From: Hyphomicrobiales bacterium
GTDB lineage: Bacteria > Pseudomonadota > Alphaproteobacteria > Rhizobiales > WTKA01
DNA: 50,114 nt
Direction: 5' to 3'
NCBI GenBank assembly: GCA_011524605.1
Contig: WTKA01000109.1
Span: 2,671 to 52,784, forward strand
Part shown: positions 7,690 through 43,247 of the stretch, in pieces
Layout: the number at the start of each line of letters is the position of its first letter
Position numbering within the stretch: position 1 is the stretch's first letter
Translations under genes and position numbers: made by a program
Notes under the pieces: generated by a model
Database searches by the model: none
What the model saw: the letters and a program-made list of their open reading frames with translations, nothing else
Told to the model about the DNA's origin: nothing

Positions 7690-7895
7690 ACGATATATTT
7701 TTATAAATTACGATAATTTAATATCATAAATTATTGAACGCAAATATGCAATATCTATTTTAACGCTTTAAAATCAATCACTTAAACATTTTTTATTTTT
7801 TATTTTCGCTAGAGCCTTTGCATCATATTATCAAGCTAACTGAGTGAGAAAAATTGCTCAACTAAATAATAAAGAAAAATAAGAAAAGAGAAAAT

Positions 7896-11330: not shown

Positions 11331-11334
11331 GCAA

Positions 11335-12126: not shown

Positions 12127-12198
12127 ATTTATCCACACTTTTAATTATTAATTGACTCTTAACACAGACTATGCGTAAATATCAATAATTAAAATCAA

Positions 12199-12215
12199 GT
12201 TTCATATAATGAAAC
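12199..12215. promoter_or_regulatory. Palindromic IclR-type operator overlapping a -10 element
   Basis: GTTTCAT-ATA-ATGAAAC is a perfect inverted repeat, close to the KdgR-type consensus of IclR regulators (ATGAAAC/GTTTCAT halves). It contains TATAAT at 12205-12210, which would serve the plus-strand operon starting at 12275. A protein bound here would block RNA polymerase. Confidence 0.6.
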
Positions 12216-12274
12216 AAACATAAAACTGGAATGGACTATTAACTTAATTTGCTAATTAATTATGGGAGACAAAC

Positions 12275-13513: not shown

Positions 13514-13593
13514 AACGCTCGTTACCGGTCGCCTTGGCGGCCGGTATCCTCCTGCCAATAATTAAACCCGTTTCTCGAACGAGGTCTTTACCA

Positions 13594-14508: not shown

Positions 14509-14511
14509 ATC

Positions 14512-19926: not shown

Positions 19927-20801
19927 AGCTTAATTGGATTGCCGTTGATTGGGGAACAAGTAATTTACGCATCTGGGCGATGGATGAAATAGATCAAATT
20001 ATTGCCGAAAAAAGCTCCGATCAAGGCATGGGTTCTCTTGCCCCTGATGCATTTGAAGATGTGTTACTCTCTCATATTCAAGAATGGATTGGCGATGCAA
20101 TTACACCAATCATTGCCTGCGGCATGGTTGGTTCTCGTCAAGGCTGGCAAGAAGCGCCCTATAGTGCAACACCAACAGCCCCCATTCAAAATTCAATCAA
20201 AGTGACAACAAATGACCCACGCCTTGATGTTCATATCATATCAGGCATAAAACAAAATAATCCAGCGGATGTGATGCGTGGAGAAGAGACACAAATTGCA
20301 GGTTTTATGGCTGAAAATGTAAATTTTGAAGGGGTAATCTGCTTGCCAGGAACACATTCAAAATGGGTCGAAATTTCTAATGGCAAAGTTAGCCAGTTTC
20401 AAACAGCCCTAACAGGTGAGCTTTTTGCACTATTGTGCCAGCAATCTACATTGCGGCATAGTCTTGGTATATGGGATGATGGAGCCTATATTCAAAAAAT
20501 TGAAGAAACAATAAAATCACCAGAAACTGCTTTCACTTCTCTTTTTTCTATTCGTGCCCATTCACTACTTGAGGATAGCCCCTATAGTATCGCTGAAATT
20601 TCAGGGACATTAATAGGCAGCGAGCTTGCTGGCATGGTCAAATATTGGAAAAATCAGCCTGTTACGCTTATTGGTAATGGAGAGCTTGTTCGGCTCTATG
20701 CGCTTGCGCTTAAAGCGGCAGGGCAAACAACATATGAGTATCACGCTGATAATATGACATTAAATGGTCTGAAATTAGCCTATCGTGAGGTATTGAAATG
20801 A
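19923..20801 (+). CDS. dgoK: 2-dehydro-3-deoxygalactonokinase
   Basis: 292 residues, the normal DgoK length. Motifs include the N-terminal AVDWGTSNLR phosphate loop, CGMVGSRQGW, MRGEETQIAG and LPGTHSKWV. It phosphorylates 2-keto-3-deoxygalactonate with ATP to KDPGal in the cytoplasm. The start overlaps the SDR stop and the stop overlaps the dgoA start, both by ATGA. Confidence 0.92.
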   Translation: MKLNWIAVDWGTSNLRIWAMDEIDQIIAEKSSDQGMGSLAPDAFEDVLLSHIQEWIGDAITPIIACGMVGSRQGWQEAPYSATPTAPIQNSIKVTTNDPRLDVHIISGIKQNNPADVMRGEETQIAGFMAENVNFEGVICLPGTHSKWVEISNGKVSQFQTALTGELFALLCQQSTLRHSLGIWDDGAYIQKIEETIKSPETAFTSLFSIRAHSLLEDSPYSIAEISGTLIGSELAGMVKYWKNQPVTLIGNGELVRLYALALKAAGQTTYEYHADNMTLNGLKLAYREVLK

Positions 20802-21403
20802 GCCGTAATATCATCGCTATTTTACGAGGCATAAAGCCTGAGGAAGTCGAAGAAATTGTATCTGCTTTGCTTGAGCAAGGCATAGATAAAATTGAAGTCC
20901 CCTTAAACTCACCCTCCCCATTTGAGAGTATCGAACGGATCATTAATCGTTTTTCTGGGCAAGGTATTTTTGGTGCTGGGACTGTACTTAAAGAAGCAGA
21001 AGTTGACCGTTTAGCTCAACTCGGCGCTAATATGGTGGTATCACCCAATTGTGACCCGCACATTATTCAAGCAACAAAAGCAGCTGGCATGCAAAGCTAC
21101 CCCGGTGTGATGACCCCAAGTGAATGTTTTAGTGCCCTAAATGCGGGAGCAGATGGGCTAAAAATCTTTCCCGGTGAACTTGTAACGCCAAAAGGGCTAA
21201 AGGCCATAAGAGCCGTATTACCTCGCGAAGCATTATGTTTTGCGGTTGGTGGAGCGACGCCTGATAATTTCGCTCAATGGCGAGAAGCAGGTGCGAATGG
21301 CTTTGGAGTTGGGTCTGCAATTTATAAACCTAACGATAGCGTTGATGTTATTACCACTAAGGCAAAAGCAATTGTGAAGGCTTATGATGAGGTTATGCTA
21401 TGA
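20798..21403 (+). CDS. dgoA: 2-dehydro-3-deoxy-6-phosphogalactonate aldolase
   Basis: 201 residues of the KDPG/KDPGal aldolase family. The segments IEVPLNSP, GAGTV, VVSPNCD, PGVMTPSE and GADGLKIFPGE occur in order; the lysine in GLKIFP forms the Schiff base. The PLNSP sequence is typical of the galactonate enzyme rather than the gluconate one. It splits KDPGal to pyruvate and glyceraldehyde-3-phosphate. It overlaps both neighbours by ATGA. Confidence 0.92.
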   Translation: MSRNIIAILRGIKPEEVEEIVSALLEQGIDKIEVPLNSPSPFESIERIINRFSGQGIFGAGTVLKEAEVDRLAQLGANMVVSPNCDPHIIQATKAAGMQSYPGVMTPSECFSALNAGADGLKIFPGELVTPKGLKAIRAVLPREALCFAVGGATPDNFAQWREAGANGFGVGSAIYKPNDSVDVITTKAKAIVKAYDEVML

Positions 21404-22239
21404 TTTTTGATAATCAAGCTTGCTCTTTAGGAGAAGGCTTGTTGTGGCATCCTCTTCGAAACTCTCTATTTTGGTTTGATATTAACAATAAGCGCATGTA
21501 TGAACGCCGTTTTCTTGATGATCACGCACAGCTATTTGAATTTGATGAACATGTCTCTGCTGCGGGCTGGGTTGATCAAAACACATTGCTCATTGCTTCT
21601 GAAACTGCTTTATTTCATTTTTCGATTGAAAGCAAAAAGCGCCTTGATATTGTTGATTTGGAAGCTCAAAATAATGAAACACGCTCTAATGATGGACGAG
21701 CAGATCCTTATGGCGGATTTTGGATTGGAACAATGGGCAAGAATGCTGAAACAGGTTATGGTGCAATTTACCGCTATTATAAAGGCGAGTTACGCAGGCT
21801 TTATGCTGACATAACTATTCCTAATTCAATTTGCTTTTCACCCAATGGCCGTACAGCCTATTATTGCGACACTCCAGTGAGAAAAATTATGCAGCAAACA
21901 CTGGATAATGAAGGCTGGCCTCTTGGCAGTCCAGAAATTTACATCGATGTCACCCCCTATTCCCCTGATGGCTCAGTGGTTGATAGCGAAGGTAATCTTT
22001 GGAATGCGCAATGGGGGGCAAATCGTGTTGCCTGTTATAATCCTGCTGGTGATTATGTTAAATCAGTAACATTCACGGCATCACAAATATCGTGCCCTGC
22101 TTTTGGAGGCGATGAGATGACGCATCTTTTTGCTTCTAGTGCTAGAGAAAATTTGATATCTCCCCATGATGATGACGGCAAGGTTTTTATCACTTCGACA
22201 GATATTATCGGACAAAAAGAACATCAGGTGACCCTATGA
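21400..22239 (+). CDS. SMP-30/gluconolactonase family lactonase (probable galactonolactonase)
   Basis: 279 residues, a six-bladed propeller of the SMP-30/LRE family. Metal-site segments are EGLLWHP near the start, SNDGRADPYGGFWIGTMG, PNSICFSPNG and PDGSVVDSEGNLWNAQWG. These enzymes open sugar lactones. In this operon the substrate should be galactonolactone formed by the dehydrogenase. It is cytoplasmic, with no signal peptide. ATGA overlaps at both ends. Confidence 0.87.
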   Translation: MIFDNQACSLGEGLLWHPLRNSLFWFDINNKRMYERRFLDDHAQLFEFDEHVSAAGWVDQNTLLIASETALFHFSIESKKRLDIVDLEAQNNETRSNDGRADPYGGFWIGTMGKNAETGYGAIYRYYKGELRRLYADITIPNSICFSPNGRTAYYCDTPVRKIMQQTLDNEGWPLGSPEIYIDVTPYSPDGSVVDSEGNLWNAQWGANRVACYNPAGDYVKSVTFTASQISCPAFGGDEMTHLFASSARENLISPHDDDGKVFITSTDIIGQKEHQVTL

Positions 22240-24146
22240 AACCAACACTCGGCGTTTGCTATTATCCTGAACATTGGCCTGAAGACATGTGGGCAGAAGA
22301 TGCAAAGCGCATGGTTGCAACCGGTTTAACTTGGGTGCGCATTGGAGAATTTGCATGGTCTCGCCTTGAAGCAAAAGAAGGTGTATTCACATGGCAATGG
22401 CTGGATAAAGCTGTTGAAATATTAGGGAATGCAGGCCTAAAAGTCATCATGGGCACGCCAAGCGCAACGCCACCAAGATGGGTGGTTGATAAATACCCCG
22501 ATATGCTCTCAGTTGATATTGAGGGGAAGACGCGCAAATTTGGCTCCCGCCGTCATTACTGCTTTTCTCACCTTGGCTTTAGAGCAGAAGCTGCACGCAT
22601 GGCTGCTGCGATGGCTAAGCGTTATGGCAACAATCCAGCCATTCACGCTTGGCAAATCGATAATGAATATGGTTGTCATGATACGACCCTCTCCTACTCT
22701 AAATCAGCCCTAAATGGCTTTCGCAATTGGCTAGCACAAAAATACCAATCCCCAAGCGCTCTCAACCATGCATGGGGTAATATATTTTGGTCTATGGAAT
22801 ATGATGATTTTGATCAAATTGAATTGCCTAATCTAACGGTTACAGAGGCTAATCCTAGCCACTGGCTTGATTATCGTCGTTTTATGTCAGATCAAGTCGT
22901 TGCCTTCAATAAAGCGCAAGTTCAAGCGATGCGCCCTTACGCCGCTCAACCCTTTATTCATAACTATATGGGACGGATAACTGATTTTGATCATTTTACC
23001 GTTGGTAATGACCTCGAGATTGCAAGTTGGGACAGCTACCCTATGGGCTTTCTTGAACATGTATTAAGCGAAGAAACTGAAGAATGGAAAGCGCATTTTT
23101 CCAATCAAGGCGATCCAGATTTTCAAGCCTTTCACCATGATTTATACCGCGCGGTTGGCCATGGGCGTTGGTGGGTTATGGAACAGCAGCCCGGCCCTGT
23201 GAATTGGGCGCCCTATAATCCGATTCCCCTTGATGGCATGATCAAACTTTGGACGATGGAAGCCATAGCTCATGGTGCAGAAGTTGTTAGCTATTTCCGT
23301 TGGCGCCAAGCACCCTTTGCGCAGGAACAGATGCATGCTGGGCTATTGCGCCCTGATAGCGCCAATGCGCAGGGGCAGATTGAAGCGCTTGCTGTTGCTG
23401 ATGAACTTGCAAGCCTTGGCGATATTGAGCATGAAGACAGCGATGTCGCCATCATATTTGACTATGAAAGCCAATGGGCATGGGAAATTCAACCGCAAGG
23501 CCAAGGCTTTGATTATTTCCGTCTGGTGTTTGAACAATATCGCGCCTTGCGCCATCTTGGGTTGAATGTGGATATATTGCCTGCTACTGCAAATGATTTT
23601 GGAGCTAGGAAATTAGTTTTAATCCCAGGTTTAATGGCTTGGAATGACAATTTACGCCATGCCGTTGACCATTTTGATGGCCTAGTTATAACAGGGCCAC
23701 GAACAGGTCTGAAAACAAAAAATATGCAAATCCCCCCGACATTAGGGCCAGACTTTGCCAGCACAACTATCTCACGTGTTGCCAGTTTACGCCCTAATGT
23801 CACCATCCCGCTCGCTAATGGCGGGAATATAATTAAATGGCAAGAAATATTAGAACCAAATAGCTCTATCATTGAAACAACAACGGATAATATTCCTGTT
23901 TTAGTCGCTGATGGAAAGCGTCATTATCTTAGTTCATGGCTAGATCAAGAGGGATATAAGCGCATATTCTCTGATTTATGTGATCAGCAAAAGATTGAGA
24001 CTATGGATATGCCCGAAGGCGTGCGCCAACGTGCTATCAAAGGGAAAAAGCTTATCATCAATTATAACCCTCATGATAGTGAACTCAATGGTGTTTCCAT
24101 TTCTGCTGCTGGCTATCTATGGCAAGAAGTAAGATGCAGGAATTAA
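22236..24146 (+). CDS. Beta-galactosidase, glycoside hydrolase family 42
   Basis: 636 residues. The family start GVCYYPEHWPEDMW is followed by the acid/base glutamate E144 in QIDNEYG and the nucleophile E316 in WVMEQQPGPVNW. The catalytic barrel is followed by the trimerisation and beta domains, so it looks complete. No signal peptide, so it hydrolyses imported beta-galactosides in the cytoplasm. It is the last gene of the operon, with the start overlapping the lactonase stop. Confidence 0.92.
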   Translation: MKPTLGVCYYPEHWPEDMWAEDAKRMVATGLTWVRIGEFAWSRLEAKEGVFTWQWLDKAVEILGNAGLKVIMGTPSATPPRWVVDKYPDMLSVDIEGKTRKFGSRRHYCFSHLGFRAEAARMAAAMAKRYGNNPAIHAWQIDNEYGCHDTTLSYSKSALNGFRNWLAQKYQSPSALNHAWGNIFWSMEYDDFDQIELPNLTVTEANPSHWLDYRRFMSDQVVAFNKAQVQAMRPYAAQPFIHNYMGRITDFDHFTVGNDLEIASWDSYPMGFLEHVLSEETEEWKAHFSNQGDPDFQAFHHDLYRAVGHGRWWVMEQQPGPVNWAPYNPIPLDGMIKLWTMEAIAHGAEVVSYFRWRQAPFAQEQMHAGLLRPDSANAQGQIEALAVADELASLGDIEHEDSDVAIIFDYESQWAWEIQPQGQGFDYFRLVFEQYRALRHLGLNVDILPATANDFGARKLVLIPGLMAWNDNLRHAVDHFDGLVITGPRTGLKTKNMQIPPTLGPDFASTTISRVASLRPNVTIPLANGGNIIKWQEILEPNSSIIETTTDNIPVLVADGKRHYLSSWLDQEGYKRIFSDLCDQQKIETMDMPEGVRQRAIKGKKLIINYNPHDSELNGVSISAAGYLWQEVRCRN

Positions 24147-26668: not shown

Positions 26669-27688
26669 ATGTCAAAATCAGACGTGACCATGAAAGATGT
26701 TGCCGACGCGGCCGGTGTGTCAAATATGACAGTTTCACGCGCTTTAAAACCTAGCAGCCCTATATCTGAAAAAACACGGCAGCATGTTCTCAAGATCGCA
26801 CAAGAAATGAACTATGTGCCGGATCAATTGGCAAGTAGTTTATCTTCAAAGCGCTCTGGATTTGTCGCTGTATTAGTGCCATCACTGAAAAATATTCACT
26901 TTGCTGATACTGTTCAAGCACTCAGCCATGAATTAGAAAATTCTGAGCTGCAAATATTATTAGGCTATACTGAATATGATAAAAGTCGAGAAGAAAAATT
27001 AATAGAAACAATGCTACGCAGGCGCCCAGAAGCGATAATATTATCTTATGATGGTCATTCAAAGCGCACCGTTGAATTGCTCAAAGGTATAAAAATTCCC
27101 ATAATTCAAATTTGGGAGAGGCCAAAGGATCCCATCTTACACACTATTGGCTTTTCTAATGAAAAAGCGGCCTATAACCTAACAAGCGGCCTCATCAAAA
27201 AAGGATATAAAAATATCATATTCCTAAGTGAACAAGGGCTAAAATGGGCCCAGGGCGCTGCAAAGCGACGTGGGTTTAAAAAAGCAATGTCTGCCTACCA
27301 GTTAGATCAAAATCGGATCATTGAAGTTGGAAAAGCGCCCATTTCAATTGCCGACGGTTATGCTGCCTTACCCTTAATCAAAGAAAAATATCCCGATACC
27401 GATTGTGTAATTTGCGTCTCTGATTTGCCCGCTTTTGGCCTATTATCAGCCCTCAAACAAGAAGGTTTAAAAACTGCTGAAGAATTTGGCGTTGCAGGCT
27501 TTGGTAATTTTGAGGTTTCCCGCTTCTCTTCTCCTTCTATTACCACAGTAGCTGTTGATTCCAAACGAATTGGAGAAGCTGCCGGCTCTTTAACAAGTCA
27601 ATTAATAAATAGCGAAAAAAAGCATAATGAACGTTTCCAAATTGATGTTCAGACCAGTGTAATTTTTCGTGAAAGCACAAAGCGTTAA
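26669..27688 (+). CDS. LacI-family regulator, GntR (gluconate) type
   Basis: 339 residues. The N-terminal LacI helix-turn-helix (VTMKDVADAAGVSNMTVSRAL) is followed by the hinge (YVPDQLASSLSSKRSG) and a periplasmic-binding-like effector domain. It resembles GntR, the gluconate repressor. Support comes from context: a GntR-like palindrome lies 70 bases downstream in front of the transporter, and the operon ends with gluconokinase. Start ATG has a GGAG site. It is expected to repress the following operon and be released by gluconate or a similar acid. Confidence 0.85.
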   Translation: MSKSDVTMKDVADAAGVSNMTVSRALKPSSPISEKTRQHVLKIAQEMNYVPDQLASSLSSKRSGFVAVLVPSLKNIHFADTVQALSHELENSELQILLGYTEYDKSREEKLIETMLRRRPEAIILSYDGHSKRTVELLKGIKIPIIQIWERPKDPILHTIGFSNEKAAYNLTSGLIKKGYKNIIFLSEQGLKWAQGAAKRRGFKKAMSAYQLDQNRIIEVGKAPISIADGYAALPLIKEKYPDTDCVICVSDLPAFGLLSALKQEGLKTAEEFGVAGFGNFEVSRFSSPSITTVAVDSKRIGEAAGSLTSQLINSEKKHNERFQIDVQTSVIFRESTKR

Positions 27689-27793: not shown

Positions 27794-28882
27794 TTGCCTG
27801 AGATCAGACTTGAAAATTTAGTAAAAAGTTATGGCCGTGTAGAAGTCCTACATAATATTAATCTTACCATGAATCCTGATGAGTTTACAGTGCTTGTAGG
27901 CCCCTCAGGCTGCGGCAAATCTACTACCTTGCGAATGATTGCTGGGTTAGAAACTATTTCAGGCGGTGAGATTTACATTGACGACACGCCCATCAAAAAT
28001 TTGGAGCCTAAAGACAGAAACCTTGCAATGGTTTTCCAAGATTATGCACTTTATCCCCACATGAATGTAGCGGAAAATATGTCTTTTGCTTTAAAACTAC
28101 AAAAGCGACCACAATCAGAGATTAATAAAAAAGTAATAGAAGTGGCTAATATTGTTGGCCTAGCAGATTTTCTTACCAGAAAACCAGGGGAATTGTCGGG
28201 CGGGCAGCGTCAGCGCGTTGCTATGGGTCGGGCCTTAGCGAAAGACAGCTCAATTTTTTTATTTGACGAGCCTCTTTCGAATTTAGATGCAAAATTACGT
28301 GGGCAAATGCGAGCTGAACTTGCATTGATGAGCCAACGCGTTCAAAAGAATATAATCTATGTAACGCATGACCAGATTGAAGCAATGACATTAGCAGATC
28401 GCATTGTCGTGATGCATGACGGGTATATTCAGCAAGAAGGGACGCCTATAGAATTATTCCAACGACCAGCAAATAAGTTTGTTGCAGGCTTTTTAGGCAT
28501 GCCACCTATGAATTTCCTTAATGCTGAATTAATTGAGCAAGACGGCAAGCTGCATGCCTTTGGCGATGGTTTTAATCTGGTTTTAGGTTCTGAGCTTGCT
28601 CAGAGAGCAAAAGCGGCGCAATGCAAAGACGTCATTTTAGGCATAAGACCTTCGGATTTAGATTTCAATGCCAATGCTAAACAAAACCAATCCTTAGAAT
28701 TAAATGTCATTATTTCTGAATACATCGGCGCTCAATCCGCTCTTATTTGTGATATTGGCGGTCAAAAGGTCACTGTAGAATTAAAATCTGAAACACCAAT
28801 CGCCTTAGGTGAAAAATTAAAATTTGCGATTAACTCAGAAAAAATACATATATTTAACCGCACTACTGAAATTGCAATTTAG
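27794..28882 (+). CDS. Sugar-acid ABC transporter ATPase (UgpC/MalK type)
   Basis: 362 residues. The start is TTG at 27794 behind GGAG. Walker A GPSGCGKST, Q-loop VFQDYALYPHM, signature LSGGQRQRV, Walker B IFLFDEPLSNLD and a C-terminal regulatory TOBE region (ILGIRPSDLD) are complete. It is the first gene of the operon behind the LacI operator and energises the following binding protein and permeases. The substrate is inferred to be gluconate or idonate from the kinase and the dehydrogenase remnants downstream. Confidence 0.88.
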   Translation: MPEIRLENLVKSYGRVEVLHNINLTMNPDEFTVLVGPSGCGKSTTLRMIAGLETISGGEIYIDDTPIKNLEPKDRNLAMVFQDYALYPHMNVAENMSFALKLQKRPQSEINKKVIEVANIVGLADFLTRKPGELSGGQRQRVAMGRALAKDSSIFLFDEPLSNLDAKLRGQMRAELALMSQRVQKNIIYVTHDQIEAMTLADRIVVMHDGYIQQEGTPIELFQRPANKFVAGFLGMPPMNFLNAELIEQDGKLHAFGDGFNLVLGSELAQRAKAAQCKDVILGIRPSDLDFNANAKQNQSLELNVIISEYIGAQSALICDIGGQKVTVELKSETPIALGEKLKFAINSEKIHIFNRTTEIAI

Positions 28883-28915: not shown

Positions 28916-30241
28916 ATGCTTAATATACTAAAATCTGCAGGGATAGCCGCAACTGCAGTTGCAATGATGGCAATATCAGCACTTGCTAATCCTTATAAAG
29001 ACTATGAAGGCACGACCCTTATAGTCAATTTTCCAGCACACCCGCATTACAATGCCGTGATGAAAATTTTACCTGAATTCACAAAAGCAACAGGCATCGA
29101 GGTTGAAGTCGATCAACTACCATATCTTAAGATGCGTGAGCGCCAAACACTAGAACTTGCACAAGAAGAAGGTGATTATGACCTAATTGCTTATGTTGTT
29201 TTCTCAAAAGCAGATTATGTCTATGCTGATCAACTAGAAAATCTTGCACGTTACTATATGAACCCTAAATTATCAGATCCAAATTACGACCCAGATGATC
29301 TTATTGATGGTTATGTTTACAATATTGGTTTTGCAGGAGGCAATAAAGGCTATTTAGAAGGCAAAACAGGTTCTTTATTTGGCATTCCTTATGGTTCAGA
29401 AACATCTATTTTAGGCTATCGCAAAGATATCTTTGAAAAGCATGGCTTAGAAGTACCACAAACTTATGATGAAATGCTTGATATTGCATGTAAAATACCT
29501 CAGCTAGAACCAGGTATGGGCGGCCTTGCTTCTCGTGCGGCTTCTGGACATCATGCCTCACATGCATTCTTATTACATCTTGCTCCTTTAGGGGGACGTG
29601 TATTTGATGATTCATGGAATCCAATTGTGAATAATGAAGCTGGTGTTGCCGCTGCAAATGCTCTAAAACAAATCGTCGATTGCGGCCCTGAAGGTGCATC
29701 TTCTTTTGGTTTTGGAGAAGCGCTTGGCTCATTCCTAAATGGCGATACAGCTATGTTCTTGGATACAACAATTGTTGCAGGTCAAATTGATGACCCTTCA
29801 AAATCAAAAGTTGTTGGCAAGGTCGGTTGGGCATTACACCCTGAAGGCGTTCGTCGCGGTTCTCAAACAGGCGGATTTGGCATCGGCATCCCTAAAAATG
29901 CTGAAAACAAAGAAGCAGCATTCTTACTTATGCAATGGCTAACATCTAAAACAGGTGATAAACTTGTGGCGCTCGCTGGTGGCAATCCTTCTCGCTTCTC
30001 AACACACGAAGATGCAGACGTGAATGCTAAATTCCCACACATGAAAACATTTGGTGAGGCTTTAAAATATGCAGATCCTGATTGGCGTCCTATCATTCCA
30101 GTATGGGGTAAAATTAATGCGGATCTAGGTACAACACTTTCAAAAGTCTTAACTGAAGATCTTGACATTAAAGAAGCGCTTGATGGTGTTGCTGAACGCA
30201 CAAAAGGCGTGATGGAAGAAGCAGGATATTACACTTGGTAA
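28916..30241 (+). CDS. Periplasmic sugar-acid-binding protein of the ABC transporter
   Basis: 441 residues, family 1 extracellular solute-binding protein. Signal peptide to about residue 24 (AGIAATAVAMMAISALA then NPYKDY). The usual segments LFGIPYGSETSILGYRKDIFEKHG and FLNGDTAMFLDTTI are present. An excellent AGGAGG site precedes the ATG. An intercistronic hairpin follows at 30256-30287, which would favour higher expression of this protein than of the permeases. Confidence 0.88.
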   Translation: MLNILKSAGIAATAVAMMAISALANPYKDYEGTTLIVNFPAHPHYNAVMKILPEFTKATGIEVEVDQLPYLKMRERQTLELAQEEGDYDLIAYVVFSKADYVYADQLENLARYYMNPKLSDPNYDPDDLIDGYVYNIGFAGGNKGYLEGKTGSLFGIPYGSETSILGYRKDIFEKHGLEVPQTYDEMLDIACKIPQLEPGMGGLASRAASGHHASHAFLLHLAPLGGRVFDDSWNPIVNNEAGVAAANALKQIVDCGPEGASSFGFGEALGSFLNGDTAMFLDTTIVAGQIDDPSKSKVVGKVGWALHPEGVRRGSQTGGFGIGIPKNAENKEAAFLLMQWLTSKTGDKLVALAGGNPSRFSTHEDADVNAKFPHMKTFGEALKYADPDWRPIIPVWGKINADLGTTLSKVLTEDLDIKEALDGVAERTKGVMEEAGYYTW

Positions 30242-30383: not shown

Positions 30384-31295
30384 ATGAATAGCATTAATGT
30401 GAATAGAATGACGCCATATATGTTTATGGCTCCGGCTGCAATCATCCTCGCAATTGCCCTACTCTATCCACTTGGATATATGGTATTTGGTTCTTTTAGA
30501 GAATGGGATCCAAGCCAAAGTATTGGCGAAGCAGAATTTGTTGGCCTAAAAAATTATATCACTTTGTTTTACGACCCTGCATTTCGAGAAAGTACTTGGG
30601 TAACTCTTAGATTTGCCTTTTGGGTCGTGACAATTGAAATGCTCATTGGTGTTGGCCTTGCCCTCTTTCTAGACCGTAATATTCGCGGCATGTCCTTCCT
30701 TCGCACCATGTTTATTTTACCCATGATGATTGCGCCAGTTGTTGTTGGCCTGATGTGGCGGTACATGTATCACCCCACCGTCGGAACTTTTAATCGGTTT
30801 ATAAAGTCAATGGGTTTTGAAGGGGTTGATTGGCTTGGGCAACATGCTCTCTCCTCCGTAATTATCGCTGATATTTGGCAATGGACACCTTTCATATTCA
30901 TACTATCGCTTGCAGCGCTGCAATCTCTACCTAAAAGCGCTCTTGAAGCAGCTCGGATTGATGGAGCAACCCCATGGCAACAAGTACGTTACATTAAATT
31001 ACCACTTATGGCGCCAGTTTTGATTGTTACAGCTCTACTGCGCCTTATCGATGCATTCAAAGTATTAGAAGTTATCTTGGTTATGACAGAAGGTGGCCCT
31101 GGTCTTTCTACTGAAATTTTAGCCTTACGCATTTCGCGAACTGCAACTGAATTTAGAGAATTAGGCGTCGCAGCAGCACTCTCTACCTATCTATTGCTTA
31201 TACTTCTTGCCCTTACGTTGGCAATGTTTGCCTACACTAAAATATCAGAGCTTAGAGCTCAGAGAATTCAAGCTGCAGCAGAAGAGGGTTATTAA
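30384..31295 (+). CDS. Sugar-acid ABC transporter permease, MalF type
   Basis: 303 residues. Membrane segments begin with MFMAPAAIILAIALLYPLGYMVFG, and the EAA loop is EAARIDGATPWQQVRYIKLP. It lies 142 bases after the binding-protein gene, across the hairpin, and 2 bases before the second permease. Confidence 0.87.
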   Translation: MNSINVNRMTPYMFMAPAAIILAIALLYPLGYMVFGSFREWDPSQSIGEAEFVGLKNYITLFYDPAFRESTWVTLRFAFWVVTIEMLIGVGLALFLDRNIRGMSFLRTMFILPMMIAPVVVGLMWRYMYHPTVGTFNRFIKSMGFEGVDWLGQHALSSVIIADIWQWTPFIFILSLAALQSLPKSALEAARIDGATPWQQVRYIKLPLMAPVLIVTALLRLIDAFKVLEVILVMTEGGPGLSTEILALRISRTATEFRELGVAAALSTYLLLILLALTLAMFAYTKISELRAQRIQAAAEEGY

Positions 31296-31297
31296 CA

Positions 31298-32245
31298 ATG
31301 TCTGGTAGTTCCGATATTATCTATGAGAAACAAAATCCAGCTTTTTATGCCCTATTAATTGCGCTTATATTAATGGCAATAGGACCGATAGCTCTTATGT
31401 TCGTTAATTCATTTAAGCTGGATGTCGACATTATTTCAGGGACGAGTGGGCTATTATTTATGCCTACAATTCAAAATTATGAAACGGCTTTATGTGATAT
31501 TCTTTGGTATGAATTAGATCATCTTGACTTTTGCTCGCTCAAATTTGGCGGCGCATTTACCAACTCTCTTATCATAGCACTTATCTCCACCTTTCTAACG
31601 CTTGTTATAGGCTGTATGGCAGCTTATGCCCTAGTTCGCTTTCGCTTTATGGGTCGTGATACGGTTAGCGTTACAACCTTATTGGTGCGTATGGTGCCAC
31701 CCGCCGTTTTACTTGTTCCTGTTTTTGGTCTTTGGAATAACGCATTTTGTATTGATAAAGATAGCATTATAGGTGAATTTATTCGTGATGTGTTTGGCGG
31801 TCGCGGCGATGTCTGTTTAGCCGGCACCCATTCAGGTATTATTCTAATCTATGTTGCTATGAATTTACCCTTTGTGATTTGGATTTTACAAAGCTTTATC
31901 GTTCAAGTACCGCGTTCATTAGAAGAAGCTGCTAGGGTCGATGGCGCAACATCTTTTCAAGTTTTTTATAAAGTTGTTTTGCCGCTCATAAAACCCGGTC
32001 TTGCTGCCGCTGCAATCTTCACTTTCCGAATTGCTTGGAATGAGTATTTGCTTGCCTCTGCACTGTCTGATCGGAATACAAAAACAGTGCCAATATTGAT
32101 TGTGAACAATATGTCAGAATTCAATGTTGAGTGGGGTGTGATCATGGCAACAGGCATGCTGCTAGCAATACCCCCTATCATCTTCACCCTATTTGCATCT
32201 CGCCAGATTATTACTGGTATGACAGCTGGGGCAGTTAAAGGATAA
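31298..32245 (+). CDS. Sugar-acid ABC transporter permease, MalG type, with long cysteine-bearing periplasmic loops
   Basis: 315 residues, longer than the usual 270-285 of MalG-type permeases. The EAA loop is EEAARVDGATSFQVFYKVVLP. The extra length lies in two loops expected outside the membrane. The first (about 58-85) contains C66 and C79; the second (about 147-178) contains C151 and C173. They could form disulfides. The stop is followed after 3 bases by the ATG of the broken idonate dehydrogenase gene. Confidence 0.86.
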   Translation: MSGSSDIIYEKQNPAFYALLIALILMAIGPIALMFVNSFKLDVDIISGTSGLLFMPTIQNYETALCDILWYELDHLDFCSLKFGGAFTNSLIIALISTFLTLVIGCMAAYALVRFRFMGRDTVSVTTLLVRMVPPAVLLVPVFGLWNNAFCIDKDSIIGEFIRDVFGGRGDVCLAGTHSGIILIYVAMNLPFVIWILQSFIVQVPRSLEEAARVDGATSFQVFYKVVLPLIKPGLAAAAIFTFRIAWNEYLLASALSDRNTKTVPILIVNNMSEFNVEWGVIMATGMLLAIPPIIFTLFASRQIITGMTAGAVKG

Positions 32246-32248
32246 AGC

Positions 32249-32305
32249 ATGTCAACGTATAAAGCCGCAATTATTCATGAGAGCTTGTATCTTCTAATCT
32301 TCTGA
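32249..32305 (+). pseudogene. N-terminal remnant of an alcohol/L-idonate dehydrogenase-like gene
   Basis: An ATG 3 bases after the permease stop opens MSTYKAAIIHESLYLLIF and then a TGA. The beginning fits the first strand of zinc-dependent dehydrogenases (KAAVIH..xDLRIE), such as L-idonate 5-dehydrogenase. The rest of the gene is missing. Its place in a gluconate/idonate operon supports the identity, but only about 15 residues are available, so the family call is tentative. Confidence 0.5.
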
Positions 32306-32369
32306 GGCTTCAAGCTTCGTCAATGGCCATATCCTCTATGTGGATGGCGGCATAACGGCTTCTTTATAA
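32298..32369 (+). pseudogene. C-terminal remnant of a gluconate 5-dehydrogenase-like SDR
   Basis: In a frame different from the preceding remnant, codons from 32298 give the last residues of an SDR: EASSFVNGHILYVDGGITA, then SL and the stop TAA at 32367-32369. This is the typical NG-x-x-L-x-VDGG end of SDR enzymes, and gluconate 5-dehydrogenase (IdnO/Gno) is the member expected between permease and kinase. There is a stop in this frame just upstream (32295), so nothing functional remains. The kinase ATG follows without a gap. Confidence 0.65.
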
Positions 32370-32867
32370 ATGCATTGTTATATCATAATGGGCGTTGCAG
32401 GCTGCGGCAAATCTTCTGTTGGAGAAGCGTTGGCTACACAAGGTTATTTCACCTATATCGATGGGGATGACCTACATCCTGAAGCAAATATAAAAAAAAT
32501 GGCACAAGGTATTGCTTTAACCGATCATGACAGAGAGCCATGGCTTCATCTAGTCGGACAAAAACTATGTCAGACGAATGGGCCGGTTGCTATTGGCTGC
32601 TCTGCTTTAAAATATAAATATCGGCAAATAATTGTCAATGAGGCTGATAAAACAGTGCCCTTCATTCATCTTCATGCTCCCCAAAAAATTATATATGAGC
32701 GTATGGCTAAGCGTAGCGATCATTTCATGCCAACAACTTTACTTGATAGCCAATTTGCAGACTTAGAAATGCTCGGCGCAAAAGAAAAAGGCACGGTGAT
32801 TGATATTAGTGTCAGCTTTGATCAAGTGTTAGCTTCGGTTATAAATTATATAAATAGCTTAAATTAG
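32370..32867 (+). CDS. gntK: Gluconokinase
   Basis: 165 residues, typical for thermoresistant-type gluconokinases. Walker A is GVAGCGKSS (8-16), followed by DGDDLHPEANIKKMAQGIALTD-type substrate segment, CSALKYKYR, and the family's HFMP...LLDSQFADLE. It phosphorylates gluconate to 6-phosphogluconate in the cytoplasm, for the Entner-Doudoroff or pentose phosphate route. Start ATG touches the stop of the SDR remnant (TAAATG), so translation may be coupled to the damaged upstream frames. It is the last gene of this operon. Confidence 0.92.
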   Translation: MHCYIIMGVAGCGKSSVGEALATQGYFTYIDGDDLHPEANIKKMAQGIALTDHDREPWLHLVGQKLCQTNGPVAIGCSALKYKYRQIIVNEADKTVPFIHLHAPQKIIYERMAKRSDHFMPTTLLDSQFADLEMLGAKEKGTVIDISVSFDQVLASVINYINSLN

Positions 32868-33196
32868 AGTGCTTTGCTATGAGACCAGGCGGAATGATAT
32901 GAGCATTGATTAGGCCAAGAGCATTATTAAAACAGATTTTTTGAAGTATTTGCCAAGTCTAAACCGAATTCTATTCTAATTTAAATTTCTTCAGACAAAA
33001 TCTTTGAAGCTAGATGAGACACATTAAGCGCGGCAAGTTGAAGCGCATGCCACGAAAGATTCGAAACTTCTATTATTTACATGTATATTTTATGTAAATA
33101 AATGCAAGGTAAAGCTTATTTTAGCCTTATATGGTAATTTCTATATATTGCAATCAATAGTTAGAACCTAATTAAGTAGTGAGATAGGATTATTTT
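32868..33196. other. Gene-free spacer of about 330 bases
   Basis: No ORF with coding character was found. An inverted repeat ATTTACAT/ATGTAAAT at 33075-33099 is AT-rich and could be a regulator site or a weak hairpin. No clear terminator for the gluconokinase operon was seen. Confidence 0.4.
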
Positions 33197-33265
33197 ATGA
33201 AACTGCGTTATGGAAGCATCTGGATTGTCACCTTTCTTCTCTCCCCTGCTCTTTCGGAGATTTGA
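33197..33265 (+). CDS. Possible 22-residue hydrophobic leader peptide before the DUF3422 gene
   Basis: ATG 33197 opens MKLRYGSIWIVTFLLSPALS followed by EI and TGA at 33263-33265, one base before the ATG of the next gene. An AGGAT element lies about 8 bases upstream. It looks like a short hydrophobic or signal-like peptide and could couple translation, or be a chance frame. Confidence 0.35.
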   Translation: MKLRYGSIWIVTFLLSPALSEI

Positions 33266-35978: not shown

Positions 35979-36785
35979 ATGGACGAACTTAGTATTAATA
36001 ACATTTCAATGCGATTTGATTTGCCTGATGGCGGGCATGTACAAGCACTAGAAGATGTTTCAATTAATCTTAAATCTGGTGAAATAATGTCAATTCTTGG
36101 CCCATCTGGTTGCGGCAAGACCACTTTACTTAATATATTAGCTGGTTTTTTAGCACCTACGACAGGCGAAATTTATTTAGGCGAAAATCAAATTAAGGGA
36201 CCTGGACCTGATAGAGGCATGGTTTTTCAACAAGGCGCATTATTTGAATGGATGAGTGTTCGTAAAAATGTTGAATTTGGTCCGCGTATGAAAAATATGC
36301 CAGAGCAACAACGTAATACAATTGTCGAATCTTTACTCAAAGTTGTTGGATTGAAAGATTTTAAAGATAAAGCTGTTTATGAGCTTTCGGGCGGCATGCA
36401 GCAACGCGTTGCTTTAGCAAGATGTTTAGCCAATGATCCTGATGTTATTTTAATGGACGAGCCCTTAGGCGCACTAGATGCCTTAACGCGTGAAAAAATG
36501 CAAGGTCTTATTCTTAAGCTTTGGAAAGAGACGGGTAAAACCATTATCCTAATTACACATTCTGTTGAAGAAGCATTATTATTAGGAGAGCGCTTATTGG
36601 TTATGGCGCCTAGACCTGGGCGCATTCACAAAGAGTATCGCCTCCCCTTTGCCGAGCGTGCCGTAGGTATGGATATGCGTGAAGTGAAGAAAAGTGAGGG
36701 CTTTGCTGAAACTCGAGAAGAAATCTTATCCATGATTTGGGATATGGAAGAGGAAATTATGGGTATGAGTGGTGATGCAAAATGA
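35979..36785 (+). CDS. Tau-type ABC transporter ATPase
   Basis: 268 residues from ATG 35979 (an AAAGG site lies upstream; the in-frame ATG at 35958 has none). Walker A GPSGCGKTT, Q-loop VFQQGALFEW, signature LSGGMQQRV, Walker B VILMDEPLGALD and the H-loop ITHSVEEAL are complete and of the TauB/SsuB/NrtD type. Stop overlaps the permease start by ATGA. Confidence 0.87.
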   Translation: MDELSINNISMRFDLPDGGHVQALEDVSINLKSGEIMSILGPSGCGKTTLLNILAGFLAPTTGEIYLGENQIKGPGPDRGMVFQQGALFEWMSVRKNVEFGPRMKNMPEQQRNTIVESLLKVVGLKDFKDKAVYELSGGMQQRVALARCLANDPDVILMDEPLGALDALTREKMQGLILKLWKETGKTIILITHSVEEALLLGERLLVMAPRPGRIHKEYRLPFAERAVGMDMREVKKSEGFAETREEILSMIWDMEEEIMGMSGDAK

Positions 36786-38056
36786 CTGGTCTAATTATTC
36801 TTTTTGTTTACATATCTTTGATTACCCTTGGCTATTTTATAGTGCGCTTTTTACGCAGTTTAAGGCCTAAACAACAAGGCATAACGAGCTTAAAAACTGT
36901 TACATTTGGAGATGAAAGCGCAATTATCTCAGATAGATATGCATCAATATTATCCATAGTTGTTTTATTTTTAATTTGGGGTGCTTTTACAGGATCAAAA
37001 TGGGTGCCTGTTCACGCCCCAGGCCCTTTTACTGGCGACACAAGCTTTTCCTACACCGTTATAGACGCAAATGGTGTAACTGCTGATGCTAACGTTATGG
37101 TGAATGTTGCTGAAATTGGTGAGAAAAAAGCTAAGATCGATAAACCAACGCCTGATAATAAAAATGCTTTAGCAAATGATGACTACGCAGCCACCCAAGC
37201 TTGGCGGGCCGTTGTCATTAGAGCAAATAAAAATGATAGCGCAGAGACACAAATTAATGCTGTAAATGGCCAAGCGATAATTTCTGGGGGTGACCCTGTC
37301 CAAATAGAAGATGGTACGATATCGCTAACTAGCAAAGGCTCTTTAGTTTTTCAACCCCATAAGGGCCTGCAAATGGAGCCGATTTGGATGCCACCGCCAG
37401 AACGCGTAGTAGAGCGTTTGGTTGAGATTGCCTCAGAAGGTTATCAGAATTTCACTCTATTTGAACATTTAGGCTGGTCTTTAATACGTGTTCTTACAGG
37501 CTTCTTCTTAGGGGCTTTAATCGGCATTCCATTAGGCTACGCCATGGGTTTGTCTGGATGGGTTCGTGGCTGGTTTGACCCTATTGTTGAATTTATGCGC
37601 CCAGTACCGCCACTTGCACTTATTCCTTTAGTCATTATTTGGTTTGGTATTTGGGAAACAGGGAAAATCGTTTTGCTTTTCTTAGCTGCTCTTTGGATTA
37701 TGACGATTGCGGCGCGTGCAGGTGTTTCAGGTGTAAATATTACAAAAATTCATGCAGCTTATTCTTTAGGAGCAAACCGTCGCCAGATACTTTGGAATGT
37801 CATTGTGCCTAATTCTCTTCCAGAAATTTTTACAGGCGCACGCGTTGCTATGGGCGTTTGTTGGGGGACCGTTGTTGCTGCAGAATTAGTTGCAGCGCAA
37901 GTCGGTGCAGGCATGATGATTATTGCAGCTTCAAAATTTCAGCTCACAGATATCGTAATCATGGGTATTTTCCTTATAGGTATCATTGGATATGGTATTG
38001 ATATGTTAATGCGCTATGCGGAAAAACTACTTGTGCCGTGGAAAGGTCGTTCTTAA
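36782..38056 (+). CDS. Tau-type ABC transporter permease with a periplasmic cadherin-like insert
   Basis: 424 residues against about 250-280 for TauC/SsuC. Residues 1-24 and 53-72 are membrane segments. Residues about 80-200 form an extra region that should lie outside the membrane: FSYTVIDANGVTADANVMVN at 89-108, then ANDDYAAT (131-138), INAVNGQAIISGG and GTISLTSKGSLVFQP. This order matches the end of one and the beginning of the next bacterial cadherin-like/tandem-95-type beta repeat. From about 205 the usual permease follows, with PPLALIPLVIIWFG and the ATPase contact loop HAAYSLGANRRQILWNVIVP. The core is a firm call; the origin of the insert is inference. Confidence 0.82.
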   Translation: MTGLIILFVYISLITLGYFIVRFLRSLRPKQQGITSLKTVTFGDESAIISDRYASILSIVVLFLIWGAFTGSKWVPVHAPGPFTGDTSFSYTVIDANGVTADANVMVNVAEIGEKKAKIDKPTPDNKNALANDDYAATQAWRAVVIRANKNDSAETQINAVNGQAIISGGDPVQIEDGTISLTSKGSLVFQPHKGLQMEPIWMPPPERVVERLVEIASEGYQNFTLFEHLGWSLIRVLTGFFLGALIGIPLGYAMGLSGWVRGWFDPIVEFMRPVPPLALIPLVIIWFGIWETGKIVLLFLAALWIMTIAARAGVSGVNITKIHAAYSLGANRRQILWNVIVPNSLPEIFTGARVAMGVCWGTVVAAELVAAQVGAGMMIIAASKFQLTDIVIMGIFLIGIIGYGIDMLMRYAEKLLVPWKGRS

Positions 38057-38254: not shown

Positions 38255-40678
38255 ATGAAAAGTCAGGCTCGTGTCGTTGTTATCGGTGGTGGAATTGCAG
38301 GATGCTCCACACTTTATCATCTAACTCAAGAGGGGTGGAGTGATGTCGTTCTGATTGAGCGCAATGAGTTGACGTCAGGTACAACTTGGCATTCAGCGGC
38401 ACAAGTTACAAATTTTGGCACAACTCAAACAATGGTAGGGTTGAAAACCCATTCTATTAATCTTTATAAAAAACTATCAGAAGATGCTGATAACCCAATC
38501 AATTATCACCATGGGGATGGGGGCATAAGACTTGCCAATACTGAAGCTCAAATGGATGGTTATCGCCATTTTGCAAGCGTGGCAAAAGGCATGGGTGTTG
38601 ATTTTGAGATTATTGATGCGGATGAATGTGCAAAACGTCACCCTCTAATTTCAACTGAAAACTTAATTGGGGGGCTTTGGGATCCACTTGACGGTGATAT
38701 TGATCCCGCGCAACTCTGTCAAGCCTTAGCAAGGCATGCACGAAAAGCAGGTGCTGAGGTTTACCGTAACACACCCGTTACAGGCTTAAAGCAACATAAA
38801 GATCATAGCTGGACTGTATACACTGAAAAAGGCAATATTGACTGTGAAATAGTGGTCAATGCCGCAGGTTATCGTGTCAATGAGGTTGGAGCTATGATGG
38901 GTGTGCATCATCCCGTTGCTTCAATGGAGCACCAGTATTTCTTAACAGAGCCAATTAAAGAAATTGAGGAAGCTGGTCACAGAATGCCTCTATTAAGATG
39001 CCCCGTGAGTGATTATTATTGTCGCCAAGAAAAAATGGGGCTTCTTGTAGGCTTTTATGAGCAAGATTGCAAAACGTGGGGAATGGATGGCATTGATCCA
39101 AATTTTGTAAATGCACTATGTCCTGATGATCTTGATCGGGTAATGGATGTACTTGAAGGGGCGTTTATGCGTATGCCAGCACTTCAAGAGGTCGGCATTC
39201 ATTCGATTATTAATGGTCCAATAACTTACACTATTGATGGTGCTCCTTTAGTTGGGCAGATCCCAGGCAAGCGTAATGCCTATTGTATCATTGGCCTTAG
39301 AGCTGGCCTTGGCGAAGGTGGAGGACATGGCTGGTTACTAGCACAGCAAATTGTGCATGGAGAAGCTATTTATGATACTTGGGTAATAGACCCAAGACGG
39401 TTTACTGGACATGCGAATGTAGAGTTGACCGCTCTAAAAGCAGTTGAAGATTACCAAAATGAATTCCGATTTCATTTCCCCCATGAGCATAGACCAGCTG
39501 GGCGTCCGGCAAAAACAACACCCATAACGCCTATTCTAGCGGCTGAAGGAGCGGAGTTTGGCGTCGTAAATGGCTGGGAGCGTATGGCATATTTAAAGCC
39601 ATCGCCTGATTTTCAAGAAACACATAGCTTCGAATTTAATGAAACATTTGATATTGTAGCAAAAGAAGTGCATGCTGTTCAAAACAATGTTGGTTTAGCA
39701 GAAGTTAACGGCTTCAACCGTTTTGAAATAACGGGTGTCGGCGTTCATGAATGGCTAGATACTATCGTTTGTAGTCGAGTGCCTAAAAAAGTTGGCAAAG
39801 TTGGCTTGACCTATCTCCTTAATCATAAGGGTGATATAAAAGCTGAAGCAACTTTGGCTAATTTAGATGAAAATCGAATATGGTATGGCTCTGCTGCAGC
39901 TTCTGAATACCATGATATGGATTGGTTGAGCGAAAACCTTCCAGCTGATGGTTCAATAAACATCAAATCTTTAACAAATGACTGGACGATATTAATTTTA
40001 GCAGGGCCTAAGTCACGCGATGTTATTTCAGCAGTATCCAGAGATGACTGGTCAAAAGAGGCTTTTCCTTGGCTATGCGTAAGAGAAACATTTATTGGTA
40101 TTGCACCTGCAATTGTCATGACAGTAAGTTTTTCAGGGGAGCTGGCATATGAAATTCACGTGCCGAATAATCAGCTTTATGCAGCCTATCTTGCATTGAA
40201 AAATGCAGGTGCAGAATATGGGCTTAAATTATTTGGCGCCTATGCAGTTGACTCTATGCGCCTTGAAAAAGGCTATCGCCATTGGAAAGCTGATTTGATA
40301 ACTGAATTTAATCCTTTTGAAAGCGCATTAGATCGATTTGTCAAACTGGATAAAAATGATTTTATTGGCAAAGCATCACTAATCGAAGCTCAAAAGAAGG
40401 GGCTTAGACGCAAATTCATTACCATGACTTTAGAGTGTGAGCATGCTCCAGCACAAGGTGGCGATAGTATTGTTACAACGGATGGGGCGTGTATCGGCAC
40501 TATTACATCAGGCGGATGGGGCTATCGTATAAATAAAAATATTGCCATGGGTTTTGTAGATATAAGTTATGCAGATATTGGCACTAAATTATGTGTTGAA
40601 GTCATCGGAAAAGCAATTAGCGCAACTGTTGTAACCCCTGATTTATATGATCCAGAATATTTGAATATGCGTTCGTAA
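38255..40678 (+). CDS. FAD-dependent demethylase-like oxidoreductase with GcvT domain, paralogue 1
   Basis: 807 residues with the layout of dimethylglycine/sarcosine dehydrogenases: N-terminal FAD domain (VVVIGGGIAGCS at 7-18; H46 in TTWHSAAQ at the site where DMGDH binds FAD covalently), a middle FAO-type region and a C-terminal GcvT/folate domain (about 440-807) with DSMRLEKGYRHWK. Members remove N-methyl groups and pass C1 to tetrahydrofolate. The segment after the histidine (VTNFGTTQTMVGLKTH) differs from the usual (GL..LR.S.N). It opens a row of three paralogues behind the Tau-type transporter. The substrate is not known; N-methylated taurine is inferred. Confidence 0.83.
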   Translation: MKSQARVVVIGGGIAGCSTLYHLTQEGWSDVVLIERNELTSGTTWHSAAQVTNFGTTQTMVGLKTHSINLYKKLSEDADNPINYHHGDGGIRLANTEAQMDGYRHFASVAKGMGVDFEIIDADECAKRHPLISTENLIGGLWDPLDGDIDPAQLCQALARHARKAGAEVYRNTPVTGLKQHKDHSWTVYTEKGNIDCEIVVNAAGYRVNEVGAMMGVHHPVASMEHQYFLTEPIKEIEEAGHRMPLLRCPVSDYYCRQEKMGLLVGFYEQDCKTWGMDGIDPNFVNALCPDDLDRVMDVLEGAFMRMPALQEVGIHSIINGPITYTIDGAPLVGQIPGKRNAYCIIGLRAGLGEGGGHGWLLAQQIVHGEAIYDTWVIDPRRFTGHANVELTALKAVEDYQNEFRFHFPHEHRPAGRPAKTTPITPILAAEGAEFGVVNGWERMAYLKPSPDFQETHSFEFNETFDIVAKEVHAVQNNVGLAEVNGFNRFEITGVGVHEWLDTIVCSRVPKKVGKVGLTYLLNHKGDIKAEATLANLDENRIWYGSAAASEYHDMDWLSENLPADGSINIKSLTNDWTILILAGPKSRDVISAVSRDDWSKEAFPWLCVRETFIGIAPAIVMTVSFSGELAYEIHVPNNQLYAAYLALKNAGAEYGLKLFGAYAVDSMRLEKGYRHWKADLITEFNPFESALDRFVKLDKNDFIGKASLIEAQKKGLRRKFITMTLECEHAPAQGGDSIVTTDGACIGTITSGGWGYRINKNIAMGFVDISYADIGTKLCVEVIGKAISATVVTPDLYDPEYLNMRS

Positions 40679-40755
40679 GAGATTTAGGGTCAAATTTTCT
40701 ATAATCATGCATCTCATTAGAAATAACTCGGATTAAAATTAGCAAGGAAATAGTA

Positions 40756-43200
40756 ATGCCAGAAATATCCTCCGCTCGTGTCGTTATTATTGGTGGTGGG
40801 GTCGTTGGCACTTCAATTCTCTACCATTTAACTAAAAATGGCTGGTCAGACTGTGTCCTGCTTGAGAAAAATGAGCTTACTGCAGGGTCAACTTGGCATG
40901 CTGCTGGCAATTGTCCAAATTATTCTACCAGCTTTGGTATCATGAATATGCAACGATATGGCTTGGCTCTTTATCGAGGGCTTGCTCAAGAGGTAGATTA
41001 TCCAATCAACTATCATGTAAGCGGCGCGGTGCGCCTTGCCCATTCCCATGAACGCATGATGGAATTTGAACATGTCGCCTCCATGGGAAGGTATATGGGG
41101 TTGAAGATGGATATTTGCACGCCTCAAGAGCTGCAATCACATATGCCCTTCATGGAAATACATGATTTAGAAGGCGGCTTATGGGATCCGCTCGATGGTG
41201 ATATTGATCCTGCGCAAGTAACACAAGCTTTGGCGAAAGGAGCGCGTAAATTTGGCGGTACAATATTACGCTTCACGCCTGCAATAGGCATTGAACGTGT
41301 TCAAAATGAGTGGTGTGTGAAAACTGAAAAAGGTGACATAACTTGCGAATATGTGGTCAATGCAGCAGGTTATTACGCTAATAAAATATCTGAATGGTTT
41401 TTGCCCTATGGTGGGCGTCCTGCTCCCATGGCAGTTATGAGCCATCAATATTTTTTAACAGATTCTATTCCTGAGCTAAATGCATGGAGCGAAAAACATG
41501 GTCGCAAGGTGCCTATGTTGCGTGATGTGGATTCATCATATTATTTACGCCAAGAGGTTGGTGGCGGTTTAAACCTTGGCCCTTATGAGCGCAATTGCAA
41601 GGCTCATTGGATAGCTGATAATGACCCAATGCCAGATGATTTCAGCTTCCAGCTTTATCCAGATGATCTTGACCGACTAGAATGGTATATTGAAGATGCC
41701 ATGGAGCGTGTGCCTCTTTTAGGTACGCAAGGGGTGAAGAGGAATATTAATGGCCCAATTCCTTATGCGCCAGATGGCTTGCCCCTTCTTGGCCCCATGC
41801 CGGGAGTGAAAAATGCATTTGAGGCTCATAGCTTTACATTTGGCATCGCTCAAGGGGGTGGTGCTGGCAAAGTCTTGGCAGAATGGATTATGCATGGTCA
41901 AACGGAATGGGATATGTGGGCGGTAGATCCACGGCGTTTCACCGCGCATACAGATGCGCAATATTGCATTGATAAGGCAATGGAAACCTATGGTCATGAA
42001 TATGCAATGCATTTTCCGCATCATGTTTGGCCCGCAGGGCGGGACCGGAAGCTTTCCCCCAATCATGATAGCCTCCAGAAGCTTGGTGGACAAATGGGCT
42101 GTTATAACGGATGGGAACGCGCCAACTGGTTTGCTAAGGCAGGCGATGATATCTCAGAAGAAGCAACTCAAACTTGGGCGCGGCAAGGTCCTTGGCAAAT
42201 TCGCATAAAGGAAGAGTGTGAAGCTGTTCGTGATAACGTTGGTGTTTTGGATTTACCCGGATTTTCAAGATTTAGCCTTAATGGTACAGGCGCTGCGGAA
42301 TGGCTTAGATGCAATATTGCAGGGGCATTGCCAAAAATCGGGCGGATGACCTTGGGCTATTTCCTTAATGATAAGGGGCGCATTATTACTGAAATGTCGA
42401 TTATGCGGCATGGAGAAGATGAGTTTACACTGATAACAGCGGCACTTGCGCAGTGGCATGACCGTGATTTTCTATATTCTATTTTAGCTGACGAGTTAGA
42501 TTTAAAAGATATTACAGACGAACGCACCACATTGATTGTTGCAGGGCCAAAATCAAGGGAATTACTAGGAAAAATATCAGATGCTGATCTAAGCCTTAAC
42601 TGGCTTAGCTTACAAAAAGCAACAATTGCCAAAAAGGACGCCTTATTTGCCCGCGTCTGTTTTGCCGGTGAACTTGGTTGGGAGGTTCATGCAAAATTTG
42701 AAGATATCGCAGCTATTTATGAAGCTATCTTAGGCGCTGGTGCCACACCATTTGGCATGTTTGCCTTAGATAGTTTACGCCTTGAAAAAGGATATCGAAG
42801 CTGGAAAGGTGACCTTTCATCTGATTATACCTTGATTGAATCGGGTCTTGCGCGATTTGCGCGACCGGATAAAGCGCAGAATTTTCCTGGAAAAGCTGCT
42901 CTTAAAGCTGAGCTTGCCTCTGGAAGTGTAAAACAATTTGCAAGCTTAATTGTTGAGGCTCAGGAATATGATGCGCCTTATATGTCCAATATAATATATG
43001 AGAATGAGATTGTTGGGCAAGTGACATCAGGTGGATGGGGCTATCGGATTAATGCATCCATTGCCCATGCAATTATTCGCAGCGATCTAATTAAGGCAGG
43101 TACCGAGGTTGAGATTGAAATTTATGGCAAGCGCATGAAGGCGACTGTCCAGCCCGATGGTGCTTTATGGGATGCAGATAATAGCCGCATCAGAGCTTAA
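40756..43200 (+). CDS. FAD-dependent demethylase-like oxidoreductase with GcvT domain, paralogue 2
   Basis: 814 residues with the same domain order. FAD motif VVIIGGGVVGTS, H48 in STWHAAGN, the shared LWDPLDGDIDPAQ, and in the folate part DSLRLEKGYRSWKGDL and TSGGWGYRIN. It is closer to paralogue 1 than to 3: both have WDPLDGDIDPAQ and SGGWGYRIN, which paralogue 3 lacks. The segment after the histidine (CPNYSTSFGIMNMQRY) again differs from ordinary DMGDH. ATG with AAGGAA site. Probably a second step or second substrate in the same N-demethylation route. Confidence 0.83.
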   Translation: MPEISSARVVIIGGGVVGTSILYHLTKNGWSDCVLLEKNELTAGSTWHAAGNCPNYSTSFGIMNMQRYGLALYRGLAQEVDYPINYHVSGAVRLAHSHERMMEFEHVASMGRYMGLKMDICTPQELQSHMPFMEIHDLEGGLWDPLDGDIDPAQVTQALAKGARKFGGTILRFTPAIGIERVQNEWCVKTEKGDITCEYVVNAAGYYANKISEWFLPYGGRPAPMAVMSHQYFLTDSIPELNAWSEKHGRKVPMLRDVDSSYYLRQEVGGGLNLGPYERNCKAHWIADNDPMPDDFSFQLYPDDLDRLEWYIEDAMERVPLLGTQGVKRNINGPIPYAPDGLPLLGPMPGVKNAFEAHSFTFGIAQGGGAGKVLAEWIMHGQTEWDMWAVDPRRFTAHTDAQYCIDKAMETYGHEYAMHFPHHVWPAGRDRKLSPNHDSLQKLGGQMGCYNGWERANWFAKAGDDISEEATQTWARQGPWQIRIKEECEAVRDNVGVLDLPGFSRFSLNGTGAAEWLRCNIAGALPKIGRMTLGYFLNDKGRIITEMSIMRHGEDEFTLITAALAQWHDRDFLYSILADELDLKDITDERTTLIVAGPKSRELLGKISDADLSLNWLSLQKATIAKKDALFARVCFAGELGWEVHAKFEDIAAIYEAILGAGATPFGMFALDSLRLEKGYRSWKGDLSSDYTLIESGLARFARPDKAQNFPGKAALKAELASGSVKQFASLIVEAQEYDAPYMSNIIYENEIVGQVTSGGWGYRINASIAHAIIRSDLIKAGTEVEIEIYGKRMKATVQPDGALWDADNSRIRA

Positions 43201-43247
43201 GTCTGTATCAAAACCTCAATTTATTCTATTTAAAGGATTATATCACT

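Follow-up and report, generated by a model that had tools for sequence, protein, structure and literature searches.

The question raised by this locus was how a short spacer between the permease and gluconokinase genes of a transporter operon arose. The window, the whole stretch of 50,114 nucleotides that was analysed (positions 2671-52784 of contig WTKA01000109.1), comes from a 2.3-Mb Hyphomicrobiales genome assembled in 164 contigs (96.4% complete, 0.15% contamination). In order, the operon comprises genes for a LacI regulator, a UgpC-type ATPase, a solute-binding protein and a pair of permeases, followed by a 124-bp spacer (32246-32369) and then gntK. An earlier note had read the spacer as the scar of a deletion joining the start of idnD (L-idonate 5-dehydrogenase) to the end of the SDR gene idnO. 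Literature searches found no publication on this operon. The features of the operon and its spacer are listed below.

26669-27688, plus strand: LacI-family regulator, intact; the nearest NCBIfam models are of the GntR/IdnR types, with scores below their cut-offs.
27794-28882, plus strand: UgpC-type ABC ATPase; exceeds the cut-off of NF008653 (443.9 bits).
28916-30241, plus strand: extracellular solute-binding protein; orthologues in relatives about 70-92% identical.
30384-31295, plus strand: ABC permease 1, intact, from its ORF, profile match and relatives' loci.
31298-32245, plus strand: ABC permease 2, intact, stop codon at 32243-32245; 85-91% identity in 80 loci.
32249-32278, plus strand: probable idnD start remnant, ten codons (MSTYKAAIIH), from the blind N-terminus ranking and shuffles.
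32249-32305, plus strand: predicted 18-codon hybrid ORF created by the junction; an AGGA lies six bases ahead of the ATG (sequence and ORF list).
32279-32282, no strand: junction zone GAGA, whose side of origin cannot be told from the homology borders flanking it in the sequence.
32283-32369, plus strand: 3′-end remnant of an idnO-type SDR, ACIF*SSEASSFVNGHILYVDGGITASL then stop, from homology to intact orthologues.
32295-32297, plus strand: in-frame TAA within the SDR remnant, where aligned intact orthologues have Leu.
32370-32867, plus strand: gntK gluconokinase, intact; TIGR01313 175.9 bits (cut-off 113.75), residues 4-160.

The transporter genes and gntK were all full length and open among the window ORFs. 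The curated cut-off of TIGR01313 (Gluconokinase GntK/IdnK) was exceeded across the whole length of gntK, and its start, MHCY, corresponded to MRCY in relatives. A search downstream, in 32868-33209, found no remnant of HIBADH or of any other gene of the cluster.

The 3′ part of the spacer is the end of an idnO-type gene, decayed by an in-frame TAA and located before gntK. The last 29 codons were left, and their own TAA stop abuts the gntK ATG at 32370. When an intact idnO-type SDR from Tateyamaria was compared with the host genome, the spacer was matched (E 8.5e-7, 73% identity over 30 aa) across one internal TAA. The 28-aa remnant, used in turn as the query, matched about 40 intact SDR copies at 70-93% identity, with E values down to about 1e-12 to 1e-13 as computed in small databases of related loci, and most of these copies sat immediately 5′ of gntK. 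Among the 43 SDR matches from related loci that were inspected, a few overlapping loci being counted twice, nearly all complete SDRs shared one ending, SSxASSFVNGHxLYVDGGITASL. The join between SDR stop and gntK start was nearly identical in a related locus (L039, TAATGCGGTGTTAT) and in the window (TAAATGCATTGTTAT). Identity to the closest match (L133) was 93% (26/28 positions) within the remnant and fell abruptly to about 1 in 7 positions just upstream of 32283, which argues for a break rather than drift at this point. Some tblastx alignments extended the SDR frame upstream as far as 32262; this extension was not accepted, as the extra residues added almost no score. The earlier description of SDR codons ending at the gntK ATG was thus borne out, except that the remnant begins about 15-20 bases further upstream than had been described and holds the TAA.

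The first ten codons behind the permease are probably the start of an idnD gene. The ATG (32249-32251) is correctly placed right after the permease stop, as the earlier note had said, and its frame reads MSTYKAAIIHESLYLLIF* with the stop at 32303-32305. The peptide STYKAAIIHES was scored ungapped against 1380 ORF N-termini drawn from all the related loci, a blind ranking that avoids choosing a family beforehand. Indeed, idnD genes made up 10 of the 12 highest scorers, the idnD of L152 being joint top, with scores up to 24 for idnD and 17 or below for SDR starts. Against the idnD set the peptide scored 19.6 (8.9 against SDR starts), a value reached by 18 of 20,000 nucleotide shuffles and by 3 of 1423 other open ATG frames in the window. 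The remnant, short as it is, carries the N-terminal idnD motif M..[KR]A.[VI][VI]H. Typically idnD begins M[KR]A and lacks the extra residues; the idnD of L165 begins MMKTRALVLH, which is in register with MSTYKAAIIH. Of the gene types that relatives carry behind the permease (Tm-1-like, cytochrome b561, a second SDR and lactonase-like), none had a start matching the upstream 30 bases as well as idnD did. The part attributable to idnD is ten, at most eleven, codons. The zinc-dehydrogenase-like N terminus that had been proposed was therefore retained for these codons only; its 'SL' (AGC TTG) belongs to the SDR remnant.

Judged from their sequences, both stretches are remnants and not enzymes. The nucleotide-binding and catalytic motifs were missing from the SDR stretch, of which the last 29 codons alone were left with a TAA inside, and the zinc-binding ADH_N and cofactor domains were missing from the idnD-like stretch, which ends after ten codons. 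The gene names are likewise family placements. In NCBIfam, the intact SDRs of L151 and L152, two genomes of the same order, exceeded the cut-off of SDR subfamily NF005711, with a gluconate 5-dehydrogenase model next best and below cut-off; 'idnO-type' accordingly denotes a gluconate 5-dehydrogenase-like placement. The idnD proteins of L151 and L152 matched NF007375 (L-idonate 5-dehydrogenase) as best model at 348-359 bits, below its cut-off of 469, and their name too is a placement by family.

Since the four bases GAGA could not be assigned to one side, the breakpoint was located to within a few bases. In L151 and L152, idnD-idnO-gntK are collinear and intact, and the distance between the codons matching CAT (32276-32278) and GCT (32283-32285) was 1747 bp and 1700 bp, respectively, in agreement with the loss of about 1.7 kb that had been expected. 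In the ancestor, idnD, idnO and gntK probably followed the ABC permease in this order, all on the same strand, and one deletion of ~1.7 kb would have joined idnD codon ~10 (CAT) to idnO codon ~225 (GCT) with four bases between. The spacer is very likely the scar of this loss, in line with the earlier reading: both fragments match their families, in the order kept in L151 and L152, and the idnD half is short. Both the origin of the entire loss in a single event and the effect of that loss are inferred.

The survey took in 150 relatives, together with 397 genomes from the order and 385 from the class; a genome of the same family was sought among them and none was found. Counterparts of permease 2 at 85-91% identity occurred in Rhodobacterales, Hyphomicrobiales and Granulosicoccaceae, and the transporter was found in two contexts. 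In one, a LacI gene of the window's kind was missing and a Tm-1-like gene stood behind the permease. In the other, a LacI regulator was accompanied, partly or wholly, by cytochrome b561, SMP-30, heme-binding, idnD (minus strand), idnO (plus strand), gntK and HIBADH genes. The window resembles the second context because its LacI regulator is present; LacI genes mostly 51-62% identical accompany the same transporter in relatives of this idn-linked type. Clusters of this LacI-UgpC type (for example L039, L046 and Thalassococcus L030) share the regulator type and transporter with the window, with permease 2 at 88-90%, and in L039 and L046 idnO precedes gntK, as the remnant does. They differ from the proposed ancestral order: their idnD lies on the other strand, and their permease is separated from idnO by several genes. 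The L151 and L152 cassettes resemble the inferred ancestor in gene order, in an idnO end lying against gntK and in an idnD start like the remnant; unlike the window, they have both dehydrogenase genes intact and no adjoining ABC transporter of the window's type. A search of related strains for intact idnD-idnO between permease and kinase had been proposed as a check. The idnD-idnO-gntK part of this arrangement was found in L151 and L152, whereas permease-idnD-idnO-gntK in one run was found in no relative examined.

Two further observations concern these loci. The same ABC transporter (L033-L112), at 85-91% permease identity, occurs in alphaproteobacterial and gammaproteobacterial (Granulosicoccaceae) genomes in both contexts, which suggests transfer between classes; some MAG labels may also be wrong. 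In L142 (G360) the gluconokinase match crosses one TAG, and gntK there may be broken.

The main gap in the argument for the deletion is that in none of about 90 related transporter loci does idnD lie immediately behind the permease, and this counts against it together with an idnD half of just ten codons. Only idnO might then have been truncated, by a deletion that began in other or non-coding sequence behind the permease, the idnD-like codons being due to chance. In most relatives idnD is indeed divergent from idnO and other genes, usually of the cytochrome b561 or Tm-1-like type, stand behind the permease, and three other ATG frames of the window score as high as this short stretch. This account is nevertheless unlikely, as the blind ranking was led by idnD starts, the ATG is in the right position and preceded by an AGGA motif, and a collinear idnD-idnO-gntK exists. 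An internal deletion within idnO, fusing its own start to its own end behind the permease, would find some likeness in the MS.. start and following hydrophobic stretch, which are loosely SDR-like; with the SDR-start scores given above falling well short of those for idnD, it is extremely improbable.

The draft state of the genome, with its 164 contigs, leaves room for an artefact in which an intact segment was lost during contig building. This is very unlikely, since the removed sequence was nowhere else in the assembly and the in-frame TAA of the remnant could not be produced by a mere join. More generally, at this contig number and completeness it is conceivable that the junction was misassembled or that idnD is present at another place. 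Protein searches of the host assembly found no intact idnD or idnO elsewhere. The sole IdnD match in the host genome was a quinone-oxidoreductase-like protein and the best host SDRs were 31-39% identical to IdnO; on inspection, these candidates were discarded.

The deletion of idnD and idnO sequence would have left the cell unable to convert L-idonate or 5-ketogluconate to D-gluconate. In the idn (GntII) system of Escherichia coli, L-idonate is converted to 5-ketogluconate, then gluconate and then 6-phosphogluconate, and uptake is by a gluconate/idonate permease of another family than the ABC importer. The pathway logic of the window is alike, with an ABC importer in place and both dehydrogenase genes gone. 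The metabolic consequence is read from this established pathway: the steps from L-idonate through 5-ketogluconate to gluconate are likely lost, and the Entner-Doudoroff route may still be open to gluconate via GntK. Phosphogluconate dehydratase (edd) was present in the host (956 bits), and 6-phosphogluconate dehydrogenase (6PGD, PF00393) was not detected in the host genome. Import of the sugar acid, presumed from the gene neighbourhood to be gluconate or idonate, may persist along with the phosphorylation of gluconate by GntK and the passage of 6-phosphogluconate to the Entner-Doudoroff enzymes. With the substrate so presumed, the intact transporter, gntK and edd agree with the earlier statement that uptake and gluconate phosphorylation are all that the operon retains. 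Expression of gntK may be reduced by the TAA and by the loss of translational coupling to idnO. That the 18-codon hybrid ORF was kept as a small leader setting gntK translation in place of this coupling is highly doubtful.

The event is ordinary gene loss, or reductive operon decay, and illustrates cleanly how an alphaproteobacterial genome of 2.3 Mb can be trimmed of catabolic functions, leaving general understanding unchanged. The predicted phenotype is no growth on L-idonate or 5-ketogluconate, with gluconate use possible, and the operon should not be annotated as an idonate pathway.

Four other parts of the window were also noted. At 6112-9323 an RtcR regulator is divergent from an RtcB RNA ligase, forming an RNA-repair pair. 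From the ORFs only, 9397-24146 appears to be a large galactoside cluster with epimerase, ABC transporter, alpha-galactosidase, dehydratase, KDPG-type aldolase, SMP-30 lactonase and beta-galactosidase genes. An ABC permease at 36782-38056 has an N-terminal insertion, an uncommon feature in permeases, that partially matches a bacterial Ig domain (Big_9, E 9.4e-6); a normal BPD_transp_1 domain follows. Three consecutive genes of 807-814 aa occupy 38255-45692; the first encodes an FAD oxidoreductase fused to glycine-cleavage T domains, dimethylglycine/sarcosine dehydrogenase-like, and the second and third look alike by sequence.
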